In this document: in pieces, positions 2,074 to 11,897 of the stretch
Position numbering within the stretch: the first letter of the stretch is position 1
Layout of the letters: each line of letters starts with the position of its first letter
From: an uncultured Planctomycetaceae bacterium
GTDB taxonomy: Bacteria; Planctomycetota; Planctomycetia; Planctomycetales; Planctomycetaceae
Direction: 5' to 3'
Assembly: GCA_937916515.1 (NCBI GenBank)
Contig: CALFSX010000153.1
Location: 1-64,000 of the forward strand
DNA length: 64,000 bases
Notes under the pieces: generated by a model
The model's input: only the letters and a program-made list of their open reading frames with translations
The model's database searches: none
Told to the model about the DNA's origin: nothing
Program-made: the position numbers and the translations under genes

Positions 2074-4626
2074 ATGAATTGGCGGCTTATCTTTTCCGGC
2101 ATCCAGTCGACAGGCTGGACCATCATCGTTGTGCTTGCAGTTGCATTGGCAACTGTCTTGTTTGCGGTACTGCGTAAATACGAAGCCAAACTTGTGCCTG
2201 CCAGTGTCAGCCGAATTCTGCTGACATTGCGACTGCTGGTGTTGGCATTGCTGCTGATTGTGCTTCTGAAGCCGGTGCTGACGAAATCGTGGGACATCGA
2301 TCAACAACACAAACTTGTGGTTGGTTTTGATGTGTCAGAAAGCATGGAAACCGCCGATCGCCACGCAAGCCCCTCGGAAATGCTGCGTTGGGCTCAGGCA
2401 TTGGGCATGCTGGGCAACGACAGCACAGACGCTCTGTTGGAACGCTGGTTAGCCGACTACGACGCAGGACGCCAGCCAGACTGGGCATCGTCGCCAGACA
2501 ACGCGGCAGACGATTCCGCATTAGGCGCAATCCGCAGGCAGCACGTCGAAGGAGTATTTGCAGAGCTGGCCAAAATGCCGCGTACCGAATTCGTGCGCCG
2601 GCTATTGCAGTCTCGCCCCAACGACCTGCTGGCAAAACTTGGTGAATCTCAGAACGTCGACTTGCGAGTCTTCGGAATCGAACAACAGAGCATCGACAAT
2701 AAGCAATTATCTGACTTGCTGAATTCCAATCGCGAAGAAATACGCCCAAATGGAACAGACGCCGTGCGAGTGTTGTCAGATTCCATTGGAGATTCCGACG
2801 GCTCAAAAATTCAGGCCATCGTTCTGCTCACGGATGGACGCCAAACGGAAAAGGCAAACGCTGGTTCAGAAGCGGCTCATTTGGCAAGCCTGGGAATTCC
2901 CGTTTACTGCGTGCCCATCGGATCTCAGTTGTCGCCCCGAGACCTTTCCATTGCTTCTTTGCAGGTTCCGCAAACAGTGTTTCTGGATGACACGGCTCAA
3001 CTGCGAGCCACGTTTACATCAACCGGATATGCGGGTGACGATATCACCATCAAGCTGGAACAAGATGGTCAAGTGATCGATCAAAAAACGGTGACGGTCG
3101 CGGGAGACCACTTTGATGTCGACTTTGGAATCCCGTCTGCCGTTGCAGGCAATCAAAGTTACACGATTTCCACCGACGTGCAGATCGGCGAACTTCGCGA
3201 CGACAACAATTCACGCGACTTCACGGTTTCTGTCGTTGACAACAAGTCTCACGTACTGCTGATTGAAGGCGACGCTCGCTGGGAATTTCGCTACCTGAAC
3301 AGCGCGCTGGAGCGTGATCAGCGAGTCGAATTATCGACTGTGCTGTTTCGGCAACCCTTCATTCAGATGCTGAACAAAACCTACATGGATCAGCAACTAC
3401 CCGACATTGAAGTCTTTAAAGAACAGCTTGCCAACACAGACATTCTGCTGATTGGCGATGTTGCTCCAGAAAACATCCCGGAGGTCGCGTGGCTGGAAAT
3501 TGAAAAAGCGATCTCGGATGACGGGTTGACATTGATGATCATTCCCGGCAAACGCCACATGCCTCATCGCTTTCAATCGGAAACTCTGCAGCGACTGCTG
3601 CCCGTTGCTTCGTACACTCAGCAAAGCGCAGAACGCTACCAGCGATCTCGCCCGGAATCGCCGGCGTCTGCGTTTCGGCTGAAGCCAACGCCTGAAGCGG
3701 CAGATCTGATACTGTTTCAGTTCAGTTCCATCGATGATGCTCAGCAAACAGACCTGTTCAACTTGCCGGGCCACCCGTGGGCGTATTCCGGAATTGCCAA
3801 ACCCATAGCGTCTGTCTGGGCCAACCTGGAAATCCCCGGAGTTGACCTGGGCAACGGCGACGCTGCAGCCAGCGAACTGGCTGCGGTTGTGCATCAGTAT
3901 TACGGTTTCGGACAGGTCGTTTGGTTTGGAGTTGACAGTACGTGGCGTTGGAGATTTCGAGCGGGCGATACGTGGCATCATCGTTTTTGGGGCCAGGTCG
4001 TTCGTTGGGCTGCTCGAAATAAATCAGCCGCCGGCAACGACCAGGTGCGTATGACGCTGTCTGACGTTGTCGTTGACGAAACGGCTTCCGTCGATGTTTC
4101 ACTGCGATGGAACCCAAACCTTGTCACTCAACTGGAAGGTGCCACCGTCGAACTGATTGTCGAACAAATTAACAAAGACATCGCAGCAGTTGATGCAAAC
4201 GAAACTGAATCACAGAACTTTCAAACTGTCCCGCTGACTCCACTGGAAGGTGCCCCTGAACGATACACGGCCAAACTTCCCACATTGCGCCCCGGCACCT
4301 ACAATGTGCAACTGAACGTTAAGAACGCGGCCATGAAACTGGATCAGGTAGTGAGTTCGGAACTGGTTGTGCAACGACAGCTTTCGACCGAACTTGCGAA
4401 CGTCAGTTGTAATCGAGAATTCCTGCAACAACTGGCCACCACCACCGGCGGACAACTGCTGGAACCATGGCAGCTAAAAGATCTTCCGGAACTACTGAAG
4501 CCGCAAGACGAAGTCAACAGCGTCTTGCAGGAAGAAACACTGTGGGACCACTGGTCTGTAATGCTTCTGTTTTTTGCACTGCTGACGTCAGAATGGGGCA
4601 TCCGAAAAATGAACGGCCTGCCATAA
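2074..4626 (+). CDS. Large membrane-anchored von Willebrand A domain protein
   Basis: An 850-residue protein. Two N-terminal membrane segments (about 14-34 and 47-67) precede a vWA domain whose MIDAS motif is DVSESM near residue 86, with a matching TDGR near 253. A middle module starting around residue 392 (HVLLIEGDARWEFRYL) resembles the glutamine-amidotransferase-like region of planctomycete BatA-type proteins. A final hydrophobic segment (MLLFFALLTSEWG) sits near the C-terminus. This layout fits membrane proteins of the aerotolerance/MoxR-associated group, although no MoxR ATPase is adjacent. I chose ATG 2074 because the membrane segment begins just after it; an upstream start at 1894 would translate through the terminator hairpin. 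The stop codon abuts a family A repeat. Confidence 0.8.
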   Translation: MNWRLIFSGIQSTGWTIIVVLAVALATVLFAVLRKYEAKLVPASVSRILLTLRLLVLALLLIVLLKPVLTKSWDIDQQHKLVVGFDVSESMETADRHASPSEMLRWAQALGMLGNDSTDALLERWLADYDAGRQPDWASSPDNAADDSALGAIRRQHVEGVFAELAKMPRTEFVRRLLQSRPNDLLAKLGESQNVDLRVFGIEQQSIDNKQLSDLLNSNREEIRPNGTDAVRVLSDSIGDSDGSKIQAIVLLTDGRQTEKANAGSEAAHLASLGIPVYCVPIGSQLSPRDLSIASLQVPQTVFLDDTAQLRATFTSTGYAGDDITIKLEQDGQVIDQKTVTVAGDHFDVDFGIPSAVAGNQSYTISTDVQIGELRDDNNSRDFTVSVVDNKSHVLLIEGDARWEFRYLNSALERDQRVELSTVLFRQPFIQMLNKTYMDQQLPDIEVFKEQLANTDILLIGDVAPENIPEVAWLEIEKAISDDGLTLMIIPGKRHMPHRFQSETLQRLLPVASYTQQSAERYQRSRPESPASAFRLKPTPEAADLILFQFSSIDDAQQTDLFNLPGHPWAYSGIAKPIASVWANLEIPGVDLGNGDAAASELAAVVHQYYGFGQVVWFGVDSTWRWRFRAGDTWHHRFWGQVVRWAARNKSAAGNDQVRMTLSDVVVDETASVDVSLRWNPNLVTQLEGATVELIVEQINKDIAAVDANETESQNFQTVPLTPLEGAPERYTAKLPTLRPGTYNVQLNVKNAAMKLDQVVSSELVVQRQLSTELANVSCNREFLQQLATTTGGQLLEPWQLKDLPELLKPQDEVNSVLQEETLWDHWSVMLLFFALLTSEWGIRKMNGLP

Positions 4627-4712
4627 CAAGGGCTTCGCCCTTGACCCGGTTGCGTGGCACGCGACAAGACATGGGACGCTCTATTCGCCGAGCCGCGAAG
4701 TTGCCGCTACGA
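4627..4712 (+). repeat. Family A intergenic repeat abutting a stop codon
   Basis: Begins CAAGGGCTTCGCCCTTG directly after the TAA of the vWA gene and continues ACCCGGTTGCGTGGCACG. The far end is CCGAGCCGCGAAGTTGCCGCT. The junction TAACAAGGGC is the same as that after the anti-sigma gene at 25555. Confidence 0.75.
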
Positions 4713-5003
4713 AAGCCGATGAGCGCTAAGCGTGTGTGTCATTTCGGGCAAGGTGCAAACAAAGGCTTCCCTCAACGCCCTGACAGACGCCCCAAACCTC
4801 TGCGTTTCCCCTCTGCGTCTCTGCGCACTCTGCGCACTCTGCGATGAAGAATAACCACTCAACCGGCTAATTTTCAGAGGCCGTACCACAGCACCCCAAC
4901 GCCGTGAAGGGTTTTGCGCCGGAAGGTACAGTCGTTTAACCCGTTGTCGCTACGAACCTGATGCGTGCCAACACTTCACTGCAACGTTCCCATCAGCAAA
5001 TAC
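4713..5003. other. Non-coding spacer, possible decayed family A material
   Basis: No supported gene. A stretch near 4898-4970 (CGCCGTGAAGGGTTTTGCG, later CCCGTTGTCGCTACGAA) looks like a decayed family A copy. A run of pyrimidine-rich CTCTGCG repeats lies near 4798-4845. Confidence 0.45.
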
Positions 5004-5049
5004 AAAAGGCCCTGCAACCCACAACTTTTCAGTTGCGAACAACAGGGCC
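5004..5049 (-). terminator. Intrinsic terminator of ppa
   Basis: Read on the minus strand: GGCCCTG, an inner AACT/AGTT helix, then CAGGGCC followed by TTTT. It lies 26 bp after the ppa stop codon. Confidence 0.75.
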
Positions 5050-5075
5050 ATACACTCAACATTTTCAGTACTGAA

Positions 5076-5696
5076 CTAGCTGGCGTCGCCAAACTCGTCC
5101 TGGTAATCCAGCATTGCAGCTTCAACGACTTTTTCGGCATGTCGCCGGTCGTAGTTGGCTTCGATGGATACCTGTTGAGTCGTATCGCCGGGCATCACTT
5201 TGTAGGTTGTGAAGTAATGGCGAAGGCGATGCACAAGCGCTTGAGGCAGTTCGTCCAGGTCTTCGACGTGCGACCAGATATTGTCAGACGCCAGCACTCC
5301 GATAATTTTGTCATCTGCCTCGCCGTCGTCCAGCATCGGCAGGCCGCCGATGACTCGCACGTTAACGATCACTTCAGACTTCGTAATCGGCCGCTCGCTA
5401 AGTACGCAGATGTCCAACGGGTCGCAATCGCCTCGCTTGGCTCGAGGCATCATTGCGGCGACTCGCGGACCGCAGTATGTTCGAGGAATAAACCCATAAA
5501 GAGCGGGTGGCTGCGAAGATGTTCGTTGAGGCCGGTCGACTCGCAGATATCCCGTCACCTTATCAACTTCGTACTTTACAAGGTCAAAAGGTGTGATTTC
5601 GATGAAGGCATGTACCATCTGAGGCGGGTTGGGACCTACGTCTAGCCCGTGCCACGGATGGGGTCGCCACTTGTAAAACGCCTTCGGAAAAGTCAT
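5076..5696 (-). CDS. ppa: Inorganic pyrophosphatase, family I
   Basis: Hydrolyses pyrophosphate to two phosphates in the cytosol, pulling biosynthetic reactions forward. The 206-residue product carries the family I signature D-x-D-P-L-D (DCDPLD, residues 90-95) and the expected [10 protein letters not shown] segment upstream (67-76). I chose the ATG at 5696 because the protein then begins [15 protein letters not shown], the usual N-terminus of this group. Longer starts add about 60 residues unlike the family. The gene stands alone on the minus strand, divergent from the C1 cluster, and is followed by a good terminator. Catalytic aspartates are intact by eye. Confidence 0.93.
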
Positions 5697-6005
5697 AACG
5701 CTTGTATATCCTGTGCGAACTGTTCGTTCAGTGCTGTCAATACAGTCCAACAGCAACGACTCATGGACTCTAAGCAATCTCCCTAAACGTGAAAGCCCAA
5801 GTCTTTGAGATCTGTACGTTTTTTCGCACAAGGCACTAACCTTGTCTCGAATTTCCCGGTTCCAAACAAAGACAACGCCGATCAAGTGATCCCGAGCCGC
5901 AACTTATGCTGGTTTGCAGCAATCAAAACGGATATTTAGCCGTGAATCGTTGTCGACGATGATTGCCCAATGCACGCCCGATCAATATTTCCCGATCTGA
6001 GTTCT
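5697..6005. promoter_or_regulatory. Divergent promoter region between ppa and fhcD
   Basis: A 309-base spacer between outward-reading genes, so it should hold both promoters. I could not pick out a convincing -35/-10 pair or operator and saw no gene in it. Confidence 0.4.
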
Positions 6006-6902
6006 ATGTCACCACAGCCACAATCGCCCAAAATCGACAACACGTTCGCAGAAGCCTTCCCAATGGTGGGCACTCGACTGATCATTACAGCCATTGATCT
6101 TGAGCTGGCAACCACCGCTGCCATGGAATTCTGTGGCAACGCATCCAGCGTTATCGGCTGCGACTGCGAAGCGGGAATCGAACGAGGCCTCGGCCCCTCG
6201 CGAACTCCCGACAGTCGTCCGGGAGTCTCCGTGCTGGCGTTTGCCTTCAACAAAAAGTCGCTGGAAAAAGCGGTTGCCAGTCGAGTCGGCCAAAACGTGC
6301 TCACTTGCCCAACAACCGCGGTTTACTCTGGGCTAACCGATTCACCAAAAGAAGATCGCATTAAAGTCGGCGCTCAACTGCGATACTTCGGCGATGGTTT
6401 TCAGATTTCCAAAAAACTGGACGCTCGACGATACTGGCGACTGCCCGTGATGGATGGCGAATTTCTGTGTGAAGACGTGTTTGGAACTCGCAAAGGTATC
6501 GGCGGAGGAAACCTGCTGGTTTGCGGAGCTTCTCAGCTGGAAGCTCTGACCGCCGTGCGAGCTGCCGCGGCAGCCATCAACGACCTGGAAGACGTCATCA
6601 TGCCGTTTCCTGCGGGTATTGTTCGCAGCGGCTCAAAAGTCGGTTCGAAGTATCCTCAACTAAAAGCCAGCACAAATCACAAATGGTGCCCGACTTTGCG
6701 AGGCCAGACAGACACCGATCTGGACGCTGCTGAAAAAGCGGTTTACGAAATCGTGATCGACGGTTTTTCCGAAGCCGCGATTGCCAATGCCATGAAGGTC
6801 GGCTTACAAACAGCGTTAAACATGCCGGGTGTTCTGCGAATTTCGGCTGGAAATTATGGAGGCAAACTGGGGCCACATCATTTCCACCTCCACAAACTGT
6901 GA
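6006..6902 (+). CDS. fhcD: Formylmethanofuran:tetrahydromethanopterin formyltransferase
   Basis: Transfers the formyl group between (methano)furan-type cofactor and H4MPT in the archaeal-type C1 pathway. The 298-residue length matches Ftr/FhcD (about 297). Recognisable segments are TFAEAFPMVGTRLIITA near the start, CDCEAGIERGL, and a C-terminal SAGNYGGKLGPHHFHL. ATG 6006 gives the family's usual N-terminus; an upstream ATG at 5970 is less likely. It is the first gene of a co-directional cluster with fwdD-like, fwdB, fhcA and fhcC. The order differs from fhcCDAB in Methylorubrum extorquens. The role is firmly assigned from family knowledge; which direction the flux runs cannot be read from sequence. 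Confidence 0.93.
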   Translation: MSPQPQSPKIDNTFAEAFPMVGTRLIITAIDLELATTAAMEFCGNASSVIGCDCEAGIERGLGPSRTPDSRPGVSVLAFAFNKKSLEKAVASRVGQNVLTCPTTAVYSGLTDSPKEDRIKVGAQLRYFGDGFQISKKLDARRYWRLPVMDGEFLCEDVFGTRKGIGGGNLLVCGASQLEALTAVRAAAAAINDLEDVIMPFPAGIVRSGSKVGSKYPQLKASTNHKWCPTLRGQTDTDLDAAEKAVYEIVIDGFSEAAIANAMKVGLQTALNMPGVLRISAGNYGGKLGPHHFHLHKL

Positions 6903-7023: not shown

Positions 7024-7359
7024 ATGTCAGAAAAACGGTTTATCCTGAATTCATCGCGGTCGTCCCGACAGGGAGCATTGATTAACGTTGGCAAAGATTC
7101 AGAAGAATATATTGCTCTGACCAGTTCCATGACCATGTCTGAACCGGACATGGCAGAAATTGGTCTTTCTGAAGGGCAAATGGCAATTGTGCGGACAGAA
7201 TTCGGAGAAGCACAATTCAAGTGTCAGGCAGGAAAAGTGCCCGACGGCATGATTTTTGTCCCGTATGGCCCGCCAACGTGTAAACTAATGGGAGGCGACA
7301 CAGACGGAACGGGAATGCCAACCTCAAAAGGCTGGGAAGTGGAAATCGTACCGGTTTGA
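7024..7359 (+). CDS. fwdD: FwdD-like molybdopterin-dinucleotide-binding subunit
   Basis: A 111-residue stand-alone molybdopterin-dinucleotide-binding domain of the FwdD/FmdD type, which in archaeal formylmethanofuran dehydrogenase completes the pterin pocket together with FwdB. Supporting motifs are SPROGRESSIVE_NONE-like early LNSSRSSRQGALINVGKD and a C-terminal FVPYGPPTCKLMGGDTDGTG followed by MPTSKG, where archaeal FwdD has a PxGPwaN...TGMPxFKG pattern. ATG 7024 starts MSEKRFILN; longer starts reach back into fhcD. Its presence beside fwdB argues that the complex still binds a tungsto- or molybdopterin cofactor. The assignment is by motif, not by search. Confidence 0.8.
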   Translation: MSEKRFILNSSRSSRQGALINVGKDSEEYIALTSSMTMSEPDMAEIGLSEGQMAIVRTEFGEAQFKCQAGKVPDGMIFVPYGPPTCKLMGGDTDGTGMPTSKGWEVEIVPV

Positions 7360-7458: not shown

Positions 7459-7626
7459 ATGAACTCAAAACAACCTACCGACAAAAACCTTGCCGGGCCG
7501 GCCAGTCCTCATTTCTGCACCGATGCCGATAGTTCCGAAGAAGTGCCCGCCTGGACAGAAATCGAAGCAGGCCGCTTCATGCCTCGACGAGTTCGAGGCA
7601 GTAACCAGGGCCGAGCACTGGGCTGA
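7459..7626 (+). CDS. Possible small protein inside the C1 cluster
   Basis: A 55-codon ORF (MNSKQPTDKNLAGPA at the start, ending MPRRVRGSNQGRALG) between the fwdD-like gene and fwdB, in the transcribed direction. AGGAG at 7442-7446 lies 12 nt before the ATG, which is longer than ideal. The ordered part is the basic C-terminal half, with VPAWTEIEAGRFMPRRVRG. I recognise no family. Position between two subunit genes suggests a small accessory protein, but chance cannot be excluded without homologues. The rest of the 7360-7847 spacer shows nothing else. Confidence 0.45.
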   Translation: MNSKQPTDKNLAGPASPHFCTDADSSEEVPAWTEIEAGRFMPRRVRGSNQGRALG

Positions 7627-7847
7627 ACATTTACAGTCCCGTCGTCTGGTTCAGACGGCACTTGCAAAGAATAAGACAACCGAAATACAAACGCCCTCAA
7701 AATGGGCCACCCGCTTCAAATAAAAAAACTTTCACCTGAACAGAATTTACGGCACCGCAAAATCAGAACTCAGGCAAACTGCCGGCAACAGATTGTTGCC
7801 CACTGACGTTGATAATTTTGAAGTGCAAAACCGGAAAGAGCATTTCG

Positions 7848-9188
7848 ATGACTCTTCAGATTATTAACAACGCGACCTGTACTTTTTGTGGCTGCGTGTG
7901 TGATGACATTCAGCTGCATCACGACGAAGTCCGCATTCATGAAGCCAAAAAGGCGTGCGTCCTGGGCACCGCGTGGTTTCTGAATCACACGGCGGAAAAG
8001 AAATATCCGGACGCACTGATCGACGGCAAAGAAGCAACCGTGGAAGAAGCCATTCAAATGGCCGCCACACTGCTTCACGAAGCTGACATGCCATTGGTTT
8101 ACGGTATGAGCAACACAACCTGCGAAGCGCAGAAAGAATGTGTGGCTATGGCCGACATCCTGGGAGGGCTGCTGGACAGCCATACCTCTCTTTGACACGG
8201 TCCTACCGAAATCGCCGCCCAGTTGGGTGGTAAAGTTACGTGTACTCTTGGCGAAGTAAAACAGCGAGCCGACTTTATCGTGTATTGGGGAGGAAACCCG
8301 GCAGAATGCCATCCTCGCCACTTCACGAAATACACCATCATGCAGAAAAGTAAGTTTCTGCCGCGTGGTCGCAAAGACCGCACGATGGTGTTGGTCGACA
8401 TTCGAGAAACGAAAAGCGCGAAAGCGGCTGATATTTTTCTGCAGGTGAAGCCCGGTAAAGATTTCGAACTGATCACCATTCTGCGAGCACTCATCAAAGA
8501 CCAGCATGTCGGCGATGAACAGATCGCCGAAACCGGAATGACGCGCGCCGGTCTTGACGACCTTGTGCACAGAATGAAGTCTTGCAAATTTGGAGTCTTC
8601 TTCTTTGGCATGGGCCTGTCGATGACGCGCGGCAAACACATGAACAGCGCCGCACTGCTGACTCTGGCGGCGGAAATGAACGCGTTCACCAAGTTCGTGG
8701 CGATGCCAATGCGTGGTCATGGCAACGTGACAGGAGCCGACGTCATCATGCGATGGCAGACTGGATATCCGTTTGGGATCACCTTTAATCGAGGCTATCC
8801 ACGTTACAATCCGGGAGAATTCTCAACCGTGGATGTGCTGGTGCGAGGCGACTGCGACGCCGCATTTATTATCGGTGCCGACCCAGGCGCCACAATGCCT
8901 CAACCGGCCATCGATCACTTGGCGCGAATCCCCACGATCTGCCTGGACCCTCATGTGACCCATACCAGCCGTTTGGCTCGAGTTCACATCACAACAGCAG
9001 CTCAGGGAATCTCAGCACCAGGCACGGCATATCGCATGGACGAACTTCCGCTTCCGTTAAAGCCGGCGTTAAAATCACCGTATCCTTCGGACGAAGAAGT
9101 CGTGCGGCGTATCAACGAAGCGATCGCAAAGAAACCATTCTGGCTGCCAGACGGAAGCCAGCCACAAGTCGTCACAGCGATTGGGTAA
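7848..9188 (+). CDS. fwdB: Formylmethanofuran dehydrogenase subunit B, selenocysteine-containing (in-frame TGA recoded)
   Basis: The catalytic subunit interconverts CO2 and formylmethanofuran at a tungsto/molybdopterin site. The frame 7848-9188 codes for 446 residues with a single in-frame TGA at 8193-8195 (residue 116), in the sequence HTSL-U-HGPTEIAA. Archaeal FwdB has Cys or Sec at this place (x-C/U-H-G-P), the metal ligand. Homology continues without a break on both sides: before it VYGMSNTTCEAQ, after it CTLGEVKQRADFIVYWGGNP and HPRH. Cysteines 11, 14, 18 and 37 (CTFCGCVC...ACVLG) form a complete iron-sulfur site. Later landmarks are FGMGLSMTRGKH, MPMRGHGNVTG and GTAYRMD. A hairpin suiting a SECIS starts 18 nt after the TGA. 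ATG 7848 is preceded by GGAAAGAG. The alternative is a nonsense mutation, which the intact downstream frame makes unlikely. Confidence 0.88.
8214..8231 (+). promoter_or_regulatory. Candidate bacterial SECIS hairpin in fwdB
   Basis: Six-bp stem CCGCCC (8215-8220) with GGGTGG (8225-8230), extended by a G-T pair, and a 4-nt apical loop AGTT. The loop lies 25 nt after the TGA and carries a G at its second position. Both fall within the usual bacterial SECIS limits (loop 16-37 nt after the UGA, G in the first two loop positions). The coding context TGA-CAC-GGT-CCT resembles that in E. coli fdhF (U-H-G-P). Confidence 0.7.
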
Positions 9189-9361: not shown

Positions 9362-10996
9362 ATGCTGAAAATTACCGGCGGAAAAGTCTACGACCCCGCA
9401 AACGAAATTAATGGCCAGATCAAAGACCTTTGCATCGACGACAACGGTCGTTTTGTAGAATCCGTCAGCGGCGGACGAACGATCGATGCCACGGGCATGA
9501 TCATTTTTCCTGGCGGAGTGGATGTGCACACGCACGTCGCGGGCGGGGCCATGAATTTTGCCCGAGCCATGACGCCGGAAGATCATCGGCGAACTCAGGC
9601 ATTCATTCGTACTCAATCAAGACGCAGCGGTCTGGGTGGCATGGCTCCCACCACGTTTGCGACAGGCTATCTGTACGCCGGAATGGGCTTCACCACCGTC
9701 AACGAAGCTGCCGTACCCGTGCTTTCGGCCCGACACACGCACGAAGAACTGGCCGATATTCCGATCGTCGACAAGGCCACTCTAACACTGATGGCCAACA
9801 ACGAAATCATGCTCGACCAGATGCAGGCGGGCGAATACGAACGAGCCAAAAACGTCGTTGCCTGGTACCTGTGGGCAGCGAAGTCTTATGGCGTAAAAGC
9901 CGTCAACCCGGGCGGAGTCGCCGCGTGGAAATGGGGCAGCGACGCCAAACAACTGAACGATCCTATCGCAGGCTACAGCAGTCTCACGCCTGGTAAAATC
10001 GTCACCATGCTGGCCACCATCTGCGACGATCTGCAACTGCCTCACCCAATGCATCTGCACTGCAACAATCTTGGTGCCCCCGGAAATATTTCCACAACGC
10101 TGGACACGTTGAAGCATCTGGAAGGTCATCGAGCTCACATTGCTCACTCGCAATATCATGCCTATGGTGGAGACGACTGGGACACAATGTGTTCAGCCAC
10201 TTCTCAACTGGCCGAATACTTCAACACCCATCCCAACATCACCACCGATGCGGGAGCCGTCCTGTTTGGCGACACCGTGACGATTACAGCGGATGGCCCG
10301 TGGCAGCATTTACTGTACAAACTTACCGGCCGCAAATGGGGCAACCTGGATGTCGAGAACGAAACCGGTTGCGGCATCGTGCCTTACACCTATCGCCCCA
10401 GCAATCTTGTCAACGCCGTCCAGTGGGCCAGCGGCCTGGAACTGATGCTGTTAATCAAAAGCCCATGGCAGGTGTTCCTGTCAACAGACCATCCCAACGG
10501 TGGCTGTTTCTGGAGATATCCAGAAATTATTCAACTGCTAATGTGTGCCGATTTCCGCAAGGAATGTATCGCAAAGCTGCCAGACAAAATAAAAAACAGA
10601 ATCACACTTCCGGAAATCGATCGCGAATACACGCTTTACGAAGTCGCCACATCCATGTCTGCAGGACCTGCCAGAGCACTCGGGCTGCACCAAAAAGGAA
10701 ACCTTGGAATCGGTTGCGATGCAGATCTTGTCATTTATGAAGAAGAGATCGATATCGCACGCATGTTCAGCCACCCTCGCTATGTCATTAAAGCCGGTGA
10801 GATCGTGATCGAAGATGGCGACATCCGCGAAACGCCGCATGGACGTGAATTTCTGGTGAAGCCGTCTTACGCTCCTGAGACAGACGAATTTATGCGTCCG
10901 CTGTTTGAAGACTGTTATACGATGCAGTTCGACAACTATCCGGTTGAAATCGAACGCATCGAAAACCCCGACGTTCGCATTCTGCCAGGCTCATGA
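9362..10996 (+). CDS. fhcA: Formylmethanofuran dehydrogenase/hydrolase subunit A (amidohydrolase fold)
   Basis: Hydrolyses or forms formyl-(methano)furan at a binuclear metal site, linking free formate to the cofactor-bound formyl group. The 544-residue protein has the amidohydrolase ligand set in order: HTH in GGVDVHTHVAGG, the carbamylated-lysine region GVKAVNPGGVAAWKWG, HLHCNN, HIAHSQYHAYGG and the aspartate in FLSTDHPNGG. The nearly invariant MNFARAMTPEDHRR segment is also present. All metal ligands therefore appear kept. It is co-directional with fwdB, 173 bp downstream. In archaea this subunit makes formyl-MFR from formate delivered through a tunnel from FwdB; in methylotrophs FhcA runs as a hydrolase. 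Confidence 0.94.
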   Translation: MLKITGGKVYDPANEINGQIKDLCIDDNGRFVESVSGGRTIDATGMIIFPGGVDVHTHVAGGAMNFARAMTPEDHRRTQAFIRTQSRRSGLGGMAPTTFATGYLYAGMGFTTVNEAAVPVLSARHTHEELADIPIVDKATLTLMANNEIMLDQMQAGEYERAKNVVAWYLWAAKSYGVKAVNPGGVAAWKWGSDAKQLNDPIAGYSSLTPGKIVTMLATICDDLQLPHPMHLHCNNLGAPGNISTTLDTLKHLEGHRAHIAHSQYHAYGGDDWDTMCSATSQLAEYFNTHPNITTDAGAVLFGDTVTITADGPWQHLLYKLTGRKWGNLDVENETGCGIVPYTYRPSNLVNAVQWASGLELMLLIKSPWQVFLSTDHPNGGCFWRYPEIIQLLMCADFRKECIAKLPDKIKNRITLPEIDREYTLYEVATSMSAGPARALGLHQKGNLGIGCDADLVIYEEEIDIARMFSHPRYVIKAGEIVIEDGDIRETPHGREFLVKPSYAPETDEFMRPLFEDCYTMQFDNYPVEIERIENPDVRILPGS

Positions 10997-11084: not shown

Positions 11085-11897
11085 ATGCCTATCACTTTGT
11101 ATCTTAAACAGGCCCCCGCAGTTCCACTGGAAACGGAAGTGCTTTCCCCGGACGTCATTTCGCAGCTTTCGAACACTGAAATTCGAAAGCTGACGGTCTA
11201 CCACGGCAAACGCCAGGTTCCGCTGGAAGAATTTTTTGACGTCGATGGAGAACACAGCGACGAACTTATCATTCACGGCGATCTGAACAAAGTGCGCTGG
11301 ATCGGTCGAGCAATGTCAAAGGGCAGCATCACTGTCCACGGCAAAGTCGGCATGCATCTGGGAGCATATATGAAAGGCGGTCGCATCGAAGTTCATGGCG
11401 ATGCCAGCGACTGGATCGGTGCCGAAATGAAGAATGGCTTCATCCACGTGCATGGCAACGCTGGCGGCCAGATCGGTGCCGCTTACCGTGGCTCGCTGGC
11501 GGGTATGAAAAACGGCACGATTATCGTCGATGGTTCTGCAGGCCTGGAAGTTGGCATGAGAATGCGTCGTGGCACGATTGTATTGGGCGGAATCGCACGT
11601 GACTTTACCGGCCTGCAAATGAAGGGCGGCACCATCATCCTGATGAGCGGCGCAGAAATTCGCACGGGTGCATGGATGAATCGCGGCACGATCATTTCTC
11701 TGAAGCCACTGCAGATGATGCCCACTTTCGCTTACGCCAGCGACTTCAATCCAATGTTCCTGAATGTGTATGCAAAGCAATTGAAGACATACGGAGTGAC
11801 CTTACCGTACGCCGCTTCCGCCGGAACTTACCAACGCTTCGCCGGCGACCTGTCAGTCCCCGGCAAAGGCGAAATTCTTGTGTGGCAGCCGGCCTGA
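11085..11897 (+). CDS. fhcC: Formylmethanofuran dehydrogenase/Fhc subunit C (beta-helix scaffold)
   Basis: Structural subunit that joins the formyltransferase and amidohydrolase subunits. The 270-residue product has the repeated G-x2-G-x3-M-x-x-G pattern of the FwdC/GltB C-terminal right-handed beta-helix, for example GKVGMHLGAYMKGG, GDASDWIGAEMKNG, GNAGGQIGAAYRG and GSAGLEVGMRMRRG. It is the last gene of the cluster, 88 bp after fhcA. Its TGA stop runs directly into a family A repeat (junction TGACAAGGGC), which replaces any ordinary terminator. The N-terminal region (PITLYLKQAPAVPLE) matches the bacterial FhcC style. Confidence 0.93.
   Translation: MPITLYLKQAPAVPLETEVLSPDVISQLSNTEIRKLTVYHGKRQVPLEEFFDVDGEHSDELIIHGDLNKVRWIGRAMSKGSITVHGKVGMHLGAYMKGGRIEVHGDASDWIGAEMKNGFIHVHGNAGGQIGAAYRGSLAGMKNGTIIVDGSAGLEVGMRMRRGTIVLGGIARDFTGLQMKGGTIILMSGAEIRTGAWMNRGTIISLKPLQMMPTFAYASDFNPMFLNVYAKQLKTYGVTLPYAASAGTYQRFAGDLSVPGKGEILVWQPA

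Follow-up and report, generated by a model that had tools for sequence, protein, structure and literature searches.

Selenocysteine (Sec) in the catalytic subunit of formylmethanofuran dehydrogenase has a published precedent within Planctomycetota. The main-text account of Kim et al. (2016; PMC4807772) describes a Sec-containing fmdB in the planctomycete P2 (Rhodopirellula), located in an fmdD-fmdB-fmdA-fmdC operon; a Lake Washington fosmid carries its closest match. This settles a doubt in the initial annotation of the DNA studied here, which had read an in-frame TGA in fwdB as likely Sec but knew of no such case in planctomycetes; given that account, the Sec-FwdB of the present locus adds one more example to a case already published. 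Bacterial SECIS elements have been modelled as hairpins located 16-37 nucleotides from the UGA codon, with an apical loop of 3-9 nucleotides carrying a G in one of its first two positions and an upper stem of 4-16 base pairs, and archaeal SECIS elements are mostly found in the 3'-UTR (PMC13188914). The same 2026 review lists 119 bacterial selenoprotein families or subfamilies (its Table 1) and still calls the role of selenium in enzymes with a Sec-metal centre unknown (PMC13188914). Our searches of the open literature for selenocysteine in Fuerstiella and for novel planctomycete selenoproteins returned nothing.

The window, by which we mean the whole stretch of 64,000 nucleotides analysed, comes from a genome assembly of 8.3 Mb with a completeness of 99.3%, whose closest named relatives are Fuerstiella MAGs, identifying it as a planctomycete. 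The genes of interest follow each other on the plus strand in the order ftr-fwdD-small ORF-fwdB-fwdA-fwdC (Table 1). All operon partners of FwdB (fwdA, fwdC and fwdD) are thus present, although for fwdD it is the Pfam domain that passes its cut-off and not the FwdD-specific model. No RNA family was matched in an Rfam search of the window, and a scan of the window judged by eye revealed no other obvious split frames.

Table 1. Features of the fwd locus, in window coordinates.
Feature	Position	Strand	Evidence
ftr/fhcD, formylmethanofuran:H4MPT formyltransferase	5970..6902	+	TIGR03119 407 bits; FTR and FTR_C Pfam domains
fwdD, molybdopterin-dinucleotide-binding subunit	about 7024..7359	+	PF01568 35 bits; FwdD model 69 bits, under curated cut-off
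Small selenoprotein candidate, 71 aa, predicted Sec at residue 56	7459..7674	+	Present in 95/101 Sec-FwdB loci
Putative Sec (UGA) codon of small selenoprotein candidate	7624..7626	+	TGA in 95/95 homologues
SECIS-like hairpin of small selenoprotein candidate, GTCGTCTG-GTT-CAGACGGC	7641..7659	+	Pairing and covariation
fwdB, formylmethanofuran dehydrogenase subunit B, predicted selenocysteine form, 446 aa	7848..9188	+	TIGR03129 494.5 bits
Probable Sec (UGA) codon 116 of FwdB, presumed Mo/W ligand position	8193..8195	+	TGA in close homologues, TGC/TGT in Cys orthologues; alignment with solved FwdB chains
SECIS-like hairpin of fwdB, GCCGCCC-AGTT-GGGTGGT	8214..8231	+	Codon constraint peak; Leu126 TTG 90/90
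fwdA	9362..10996	+	TIGR03121 674 bits
fwdC	11085..11897	+	TIGR03122 268 bits

The initial annotation had stated that the 446-codon fwdB frame contains a single in-frame TGA with homology unbroken on both sides, and both statements held: residue 116 is the only internal stop, and the match to TIGR03129 spans residues 8-425 with a score well above the curated cut-off of 327.8 bits. This was the only model passed above its cut-off, a formate dehydrogenase alpha match being weak. The TGA lies in the context DSHTSL-U-HGPTEIAAQLGG, giving the motif L-U-H-G-P, and C11, C14, C18 and C37, which we take to be the ligands of the N-terminal [4Fe-4S] cluster, are invariant in an alignment of 16 sequences. 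Codon 116 is TGA in all 102 close FwdB homologues read, which come from several planctomycete families and have an intact frame beyond it, while 14 FwdB orthologues carry a Cys codon (TGC or TGT) at this position. In partly overlapping sets, the same single TGA was found in 13 of 39 related genomes, in 8 additional sequences of a phylum-wide sample and in all of the best 80 named homologues from the genome collection. TGC or TGT occupies the codon in 8 of the 39 related genomes (FwdB identity 54-58%) and in more sequences of the phylum-wide sample, and Cys-codon relatives overall show 54-60% identity. Because the same TGA recurs across related genomes, phylum sample and named homologues, it is, judged from these comparisons, neither a sequencing error nor a product of chance. 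U116 aligns with Cys in solved FwdB chains (8rja_B) and with an X in the best match, 9sfi_Q, which is consistent with Sec. A tree of 61 FwdB proteins placed the Sec rows in one group with a support of 100/100, adjoined by Cys orthologues that do not clearly form one group (71/50). Stops in two distant FwdB relatives (G018 and G026) were considered as Sec and rejected, as they fall where the alignments end, at the C-terminus; a third such relative, G036, was likewise left out of the Sec count. The same genome also encodes, on contig C236 (L065, positions 5015-6334), a lone Cys-type FwdB paralogue with 43% identity and the motif SLCHGPS; the neighbouring ORFs scanned there contain no further Fwd subunit, and those that could be named encode an efflux adaptor and a sulfatase.

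Codon conservation along fwdB, examined in 90 distinct sequences, is highest directly after the UGA, with the top 12-column windows all falling inside residues 114-136 and the top three inside residues 114-128. Leu126 is encoded by TTG in every one of these sequences, while TTG accounts for 23% of the Leu codons in the gene; Gln125 is likewise always CAG, and Ala124 is GCC in 85 of 90. Together, these three codons form the AGUU loop and upper stem of a hairpin consistent with the bacterial SECIS model in its loop, its spacing (25 nucleotides from UGA to loop) and its stem (7 base pairs). Its base pairs are kept in 93-100% of the sequences, and its mean folding energy of -15.35 kcal/mol compares with -11.28 kcal/mol for synonymous random versions, although in 7 of the 90 the lowest-energy structure is paired differently. 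Cys orthologues differ in sequence in the hairpin region. The single-sequence fold of the hairpin in the window is only mildly low against shuffles (z -1.46), and it is the comparative data, not the single-sequence fold, that carry weight for this element.

The genome also encodes the machinery for which the initial annotation had proposed a search, and the findings that it had named as refuting Sec did not turn up. The genes selA, selB, selC and selD are all located on contig C72, with a tRNA-Sec of 77.6 bits (anticodon TCA), SelA of 500 bits, SelB of 311 bits and SelD in the form of a fusion. In the latter (L064, positions 3955-6195), a pyridine nucleotide-disulfide oxidoreductase domain precedes SelD at the N-terminus; the SelD matches in three relatives (G028, G038 and G016) each contain one TGA, probably also Sec. 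Among the 39 related genomes, SelD scored above cut-off in 24, which include all 13 with a TGA-FwdB. SelA and SelB are present in 13 of these 13, the SelA of G012 and the SelB of G015 being fragmented and under cut-off, and a strong tRNA-Sec was found in 11, with no match above cut-off in G006 and G015, where assembly gaps may account for it. Taken together, the exchange of Cys and Sec at residue 116, which the initial annotation had proposed to look for, the Sec machinery in the genome, the conserved SECIS-like hairpin and the intact, conserved frame support its assignment of selenocysteine to this residue. The UGA very probably encodes Sec at the metal-binding site of FwdB, which is by far the best reading, and by homology this Sec would be a ligand of Mo or W.

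Between fwdD and fwdB lies an unannotated ORF with an in-frame TGA of its own, which the initial annotation had missed. Its distribution follows that of Sec-FwdB closely. In a class sample of 398 genomes, the small protein was found in 80 of 80 Sec-FwdB genomes and in none with a readable FwdB without Sec. Three further genomes contain it: in one (G660) a cut fwdB also shows the TGA, and in the others (G731 and G001) fwdB is cut before residue 116. In the phylum sample it occurs in 10 of 10 Sec-FwdB genomes versus 0 of 382 others, and among the related genomes in the same 13 that carry TGA-FwdB, plus G001. Four of the six Sec-FwdB loci without a copy begin within 200 bases of fwdB; in the other two (L133 and L138), no small protein was detectable in the 3 kb upstream. 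No copy was found in the 14 Cys-FwdB loci, and in several of them a FwdD-like end stands directly upstream of fwdB. Every strong match to the small protein has the TGA, and no Cys form was seen in the class sample, where matches drop from E 5e-19 to about 7e-4, the best of the latter proving to be noise when read. Weak stop-free matches in two genomes of the class (G581 and G528) were discarded, since they come from a single repeated sequence, unrelated to the small protein, in which a stretch MPKRIRGS..GR occurs by chance. Both genes are present in K23_9 (L136), a named complete genome. A Sec-FwdB (74%) and the small selenoprotein also occur together in a MAG labelled Acidobacteria (gp6) (L166); it is either mislabelled or mis-binned, or the genes were transferred.

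Given that the Sec-FwdB rows form a single clade, the co-occurrence of the two genes largely reflects one history of joint inheritance, and the small selenoprotein could be real but a passenger of the operon lineage, unrelated to the Sec site of FwdB. We regard this as possible but unlikely. The protein is retained over the whole clade, across which FwdB identity falls to about 71%, and it is absent from the only genome that breaks the pattern. In that genome (G694; locus L188, G694:C2:22500-31500), FwdB (69% identity) is closer in identity to the Sec forms than to the Cys forms, but DR---HDLTQ stands in place of the segment around HTSLUHGPTE, leaving no Cys or Sec, and an N-terminal Cys motif of the Fe-S type is altered (CTACSC). 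The genome retains fwdA (83%) and fwdC (71%), while neither fwdD nor the small selenoprotein was found within the 9 kb read, and a search of that genome for the small protein gave no match. G694 thus appears to have turned independently to a non-redox, Fhc-like hydrolase complex. The pattern implies, from a single case, that the small protein belongs with the part of the complex that holds the metal and Sec and not with FwdA and FwdC, and it suggests a dedicated partner of the Sec-Mo/W site.

A second alternative is that the small ORF ends at its TGA and represents a leader peptide or regulator, possibly responsive to selenium, with the hairpin as a regulatory RNA element. The ORF is short and located upstream of fwdB in the operon, and its tail beyond the hairpin is poorly conserved, both of which would suit a leader. 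However, the 24 codons ahead of the TGA show diversities of 0.19 and 0.18 at first and second codon positions against 0.58 at third positions (78 distinct tails), indicating strong selection at the protein level. The core motif reads W-x-x-[IV]-x-x-G-R-x-x-P-x-R-x-x-G-S-x-x-G-x-x-L-G-U-x-F, and the codon following G-R-x-L-G (with two motif variants, GGKLG and GGVLG) is TGA in 95 of 95 homologues, which would hardly be expected of an ordinary stop given that the true final stops of the ORF are mixed (38 TGA, 30 TAA and 19 TAG among 87 read). The frame beyond the TGA always continues as U-x-F, mostly followed by x-V-P, and the residues between UGA and hairpin are conserved as protein: the Phe two codons past the UGA is kept in 85 of 85 sequences with change at the third base only (TTC/TTT), and the Pro in 74 of 85. 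A Ser/Gly/Pro/Asp-rich stretch then precedes the variable tail, and this stretch is encoded by the hairpin, which also argues against a leader by matching the SECIS model in loop (GUU), spacing (22 nucleotides from UGA to loop) and stem (8 base pairs in the window, with covariation). At this fixed spacing, 95.5% of cells are paired and 26 cells are changed on both sides in 36 sequences, which were picked for the best hairpin at that spacing, a choice that favours pairing; 0 of 500 shuffles reached the observed pairing, and slid versions were 23-48% paired. As a control for this choice, a stem of at least 7 base pairs was found in 74% of all distinct sequences versus 2% after shuffling. Many of the sequences with PPGPG instead of SSGSD retain a GUC or GUU loop one codon closer to the UGA. 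With these results, we consider termination at the small TGA improbable and prefer its decoding as Sec.

For fwdB itself, a pseudogene or a true stop yielding a truncated product of 115 residues has nothing in its favour beyond the stop codon, and is scarcely credible with the TGA at the same residue in 102 sequences from several families, the frame intact after it, Cys orthologues and a full Sec machinery. Codon reassignment is known in other bacteria, but insertion of another amino acid such as Trp or Cys at TGA, by reassignment or suppression, has a negligible chance of being correct here, given the use of TGA as a stop in these same genomes (as in the final stops of the small ORF), a tRNA-Sec(UCA) with SelA, SelB and SelD in the genome, and Cys as the orthologous residue.

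The explanation we favour is a Sec-dependent Fwd operon with two Sec codons, each guided by its own hairpin, in which the small protein may serve the metal-Sec site; as a whole we hold it to be highly likely. The product of the operon would be a formylmethanofuran dehydrogenase that depends on selenocysteine and works in the tetrahydromethanopterin C1 pathway. The UGA at 8193-8195 would be read as Sec by SelB and tRNA-Sec under the direction of the hairpin at 8214-8231, and the selenium of FwdB would, by homology, be a ligand to the bis-MGD-bound Mo or W. The UGA at 7624-7626 would likewise be decoded as Sec, directed by the hairpin at 7641-7659, resulting in a selenoprotein of 71 residues. 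Sec insertion at both UGA codons, deduced from these comparisons, is strongly supported, not proven. Two observations suggest that the small protein serves the metal-Sec site, for example in cofactor maturation, in protection or as a small subunit: it is linked to Sec-FwdB, and in G694 it is missing along with fwdD. Our first guess is that it may help to mature or protect the bis-MGD/Sec centre, or form a small subunit. Conserved Cys residues are missing close to its Sec, which makes a simple redox protein of the CxxU type unlikely. Its predicted structure, in which a short pair of strands (residues 32-42) is the one feature, is of low confidence (pLDDT 62), and a profile of its pre-Sec part had no match in the PDB; with such a fold and no conserved Cys partner for the Sec, any assigned role is a guess. 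We consider it likely, with somewhat less assurance than for the operon as a whole, that this protein is the first member of a new family of selenoproteins that has no Cys homologues and is dedicated to the planctomycete Sec form of formylmethanofuran dehydrogenase.

The Sec-FwdB found here extends the published observation and proves to be common within Planctomycetota, and the new point is the second Sec codon in the same operon. If the explanation is true, an enzyme and its own partner would both be selenocysteine-dependent inside one operon. Gene callers will report the small protein as a truncated ORF of 55 amino acids or overlook it, and searches for Cys/Sec pairs miss it because no Cys form was seen. 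Should it mature or protect the Sec-metal centre, it would offer a route to test what selenium does in such enzymes, and two SECIS-like hairpins in one operon provide material for the little-studied SelB.

Compared with known systems, the small protein resembles catalogued small bacterial selenoproteins in being short and in having a single Sec and a SECIS-like hairpin of bacterial type, but neither by name nor by motif can it be assigned to any of the 119 families (PMC13188914). It differs from them in having no UxxC or CxxU motif, no match to NCBIfam or Pfam at E up to 1 with the UGA read through, and no Cys homologue found. The planctomycete P2 shares with our genome the phylum, a Sec fmdB and the presence of both Sec and Cys forms, while the main text of that report, where it treats selenoproteins, makes no mention of a second one between fmdD and fmdB (PMC4807772). 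The formate dehydrogenase alpha subunit belongs to a related superfamily and shares the Sec-H-x-P metal-ligand motif (PMC13188914), but has other partners and another substrate. The Sec-FwdB of Methanopyrus and Methanococcus (TIGR03129, motif UHxP) is the same subunit with Sec at the same position before HGP, and M. kandleri has a Cys isoform beside the Sec form in one genome, as does the genome studied here with its Cys-type paralogue. By contrast with these archaea, the present locus is of the bacterial type in its Sec decoding, carries its SECIS-like hairpin within fwdB and has the gene order ftr-D-small-B-A-C.
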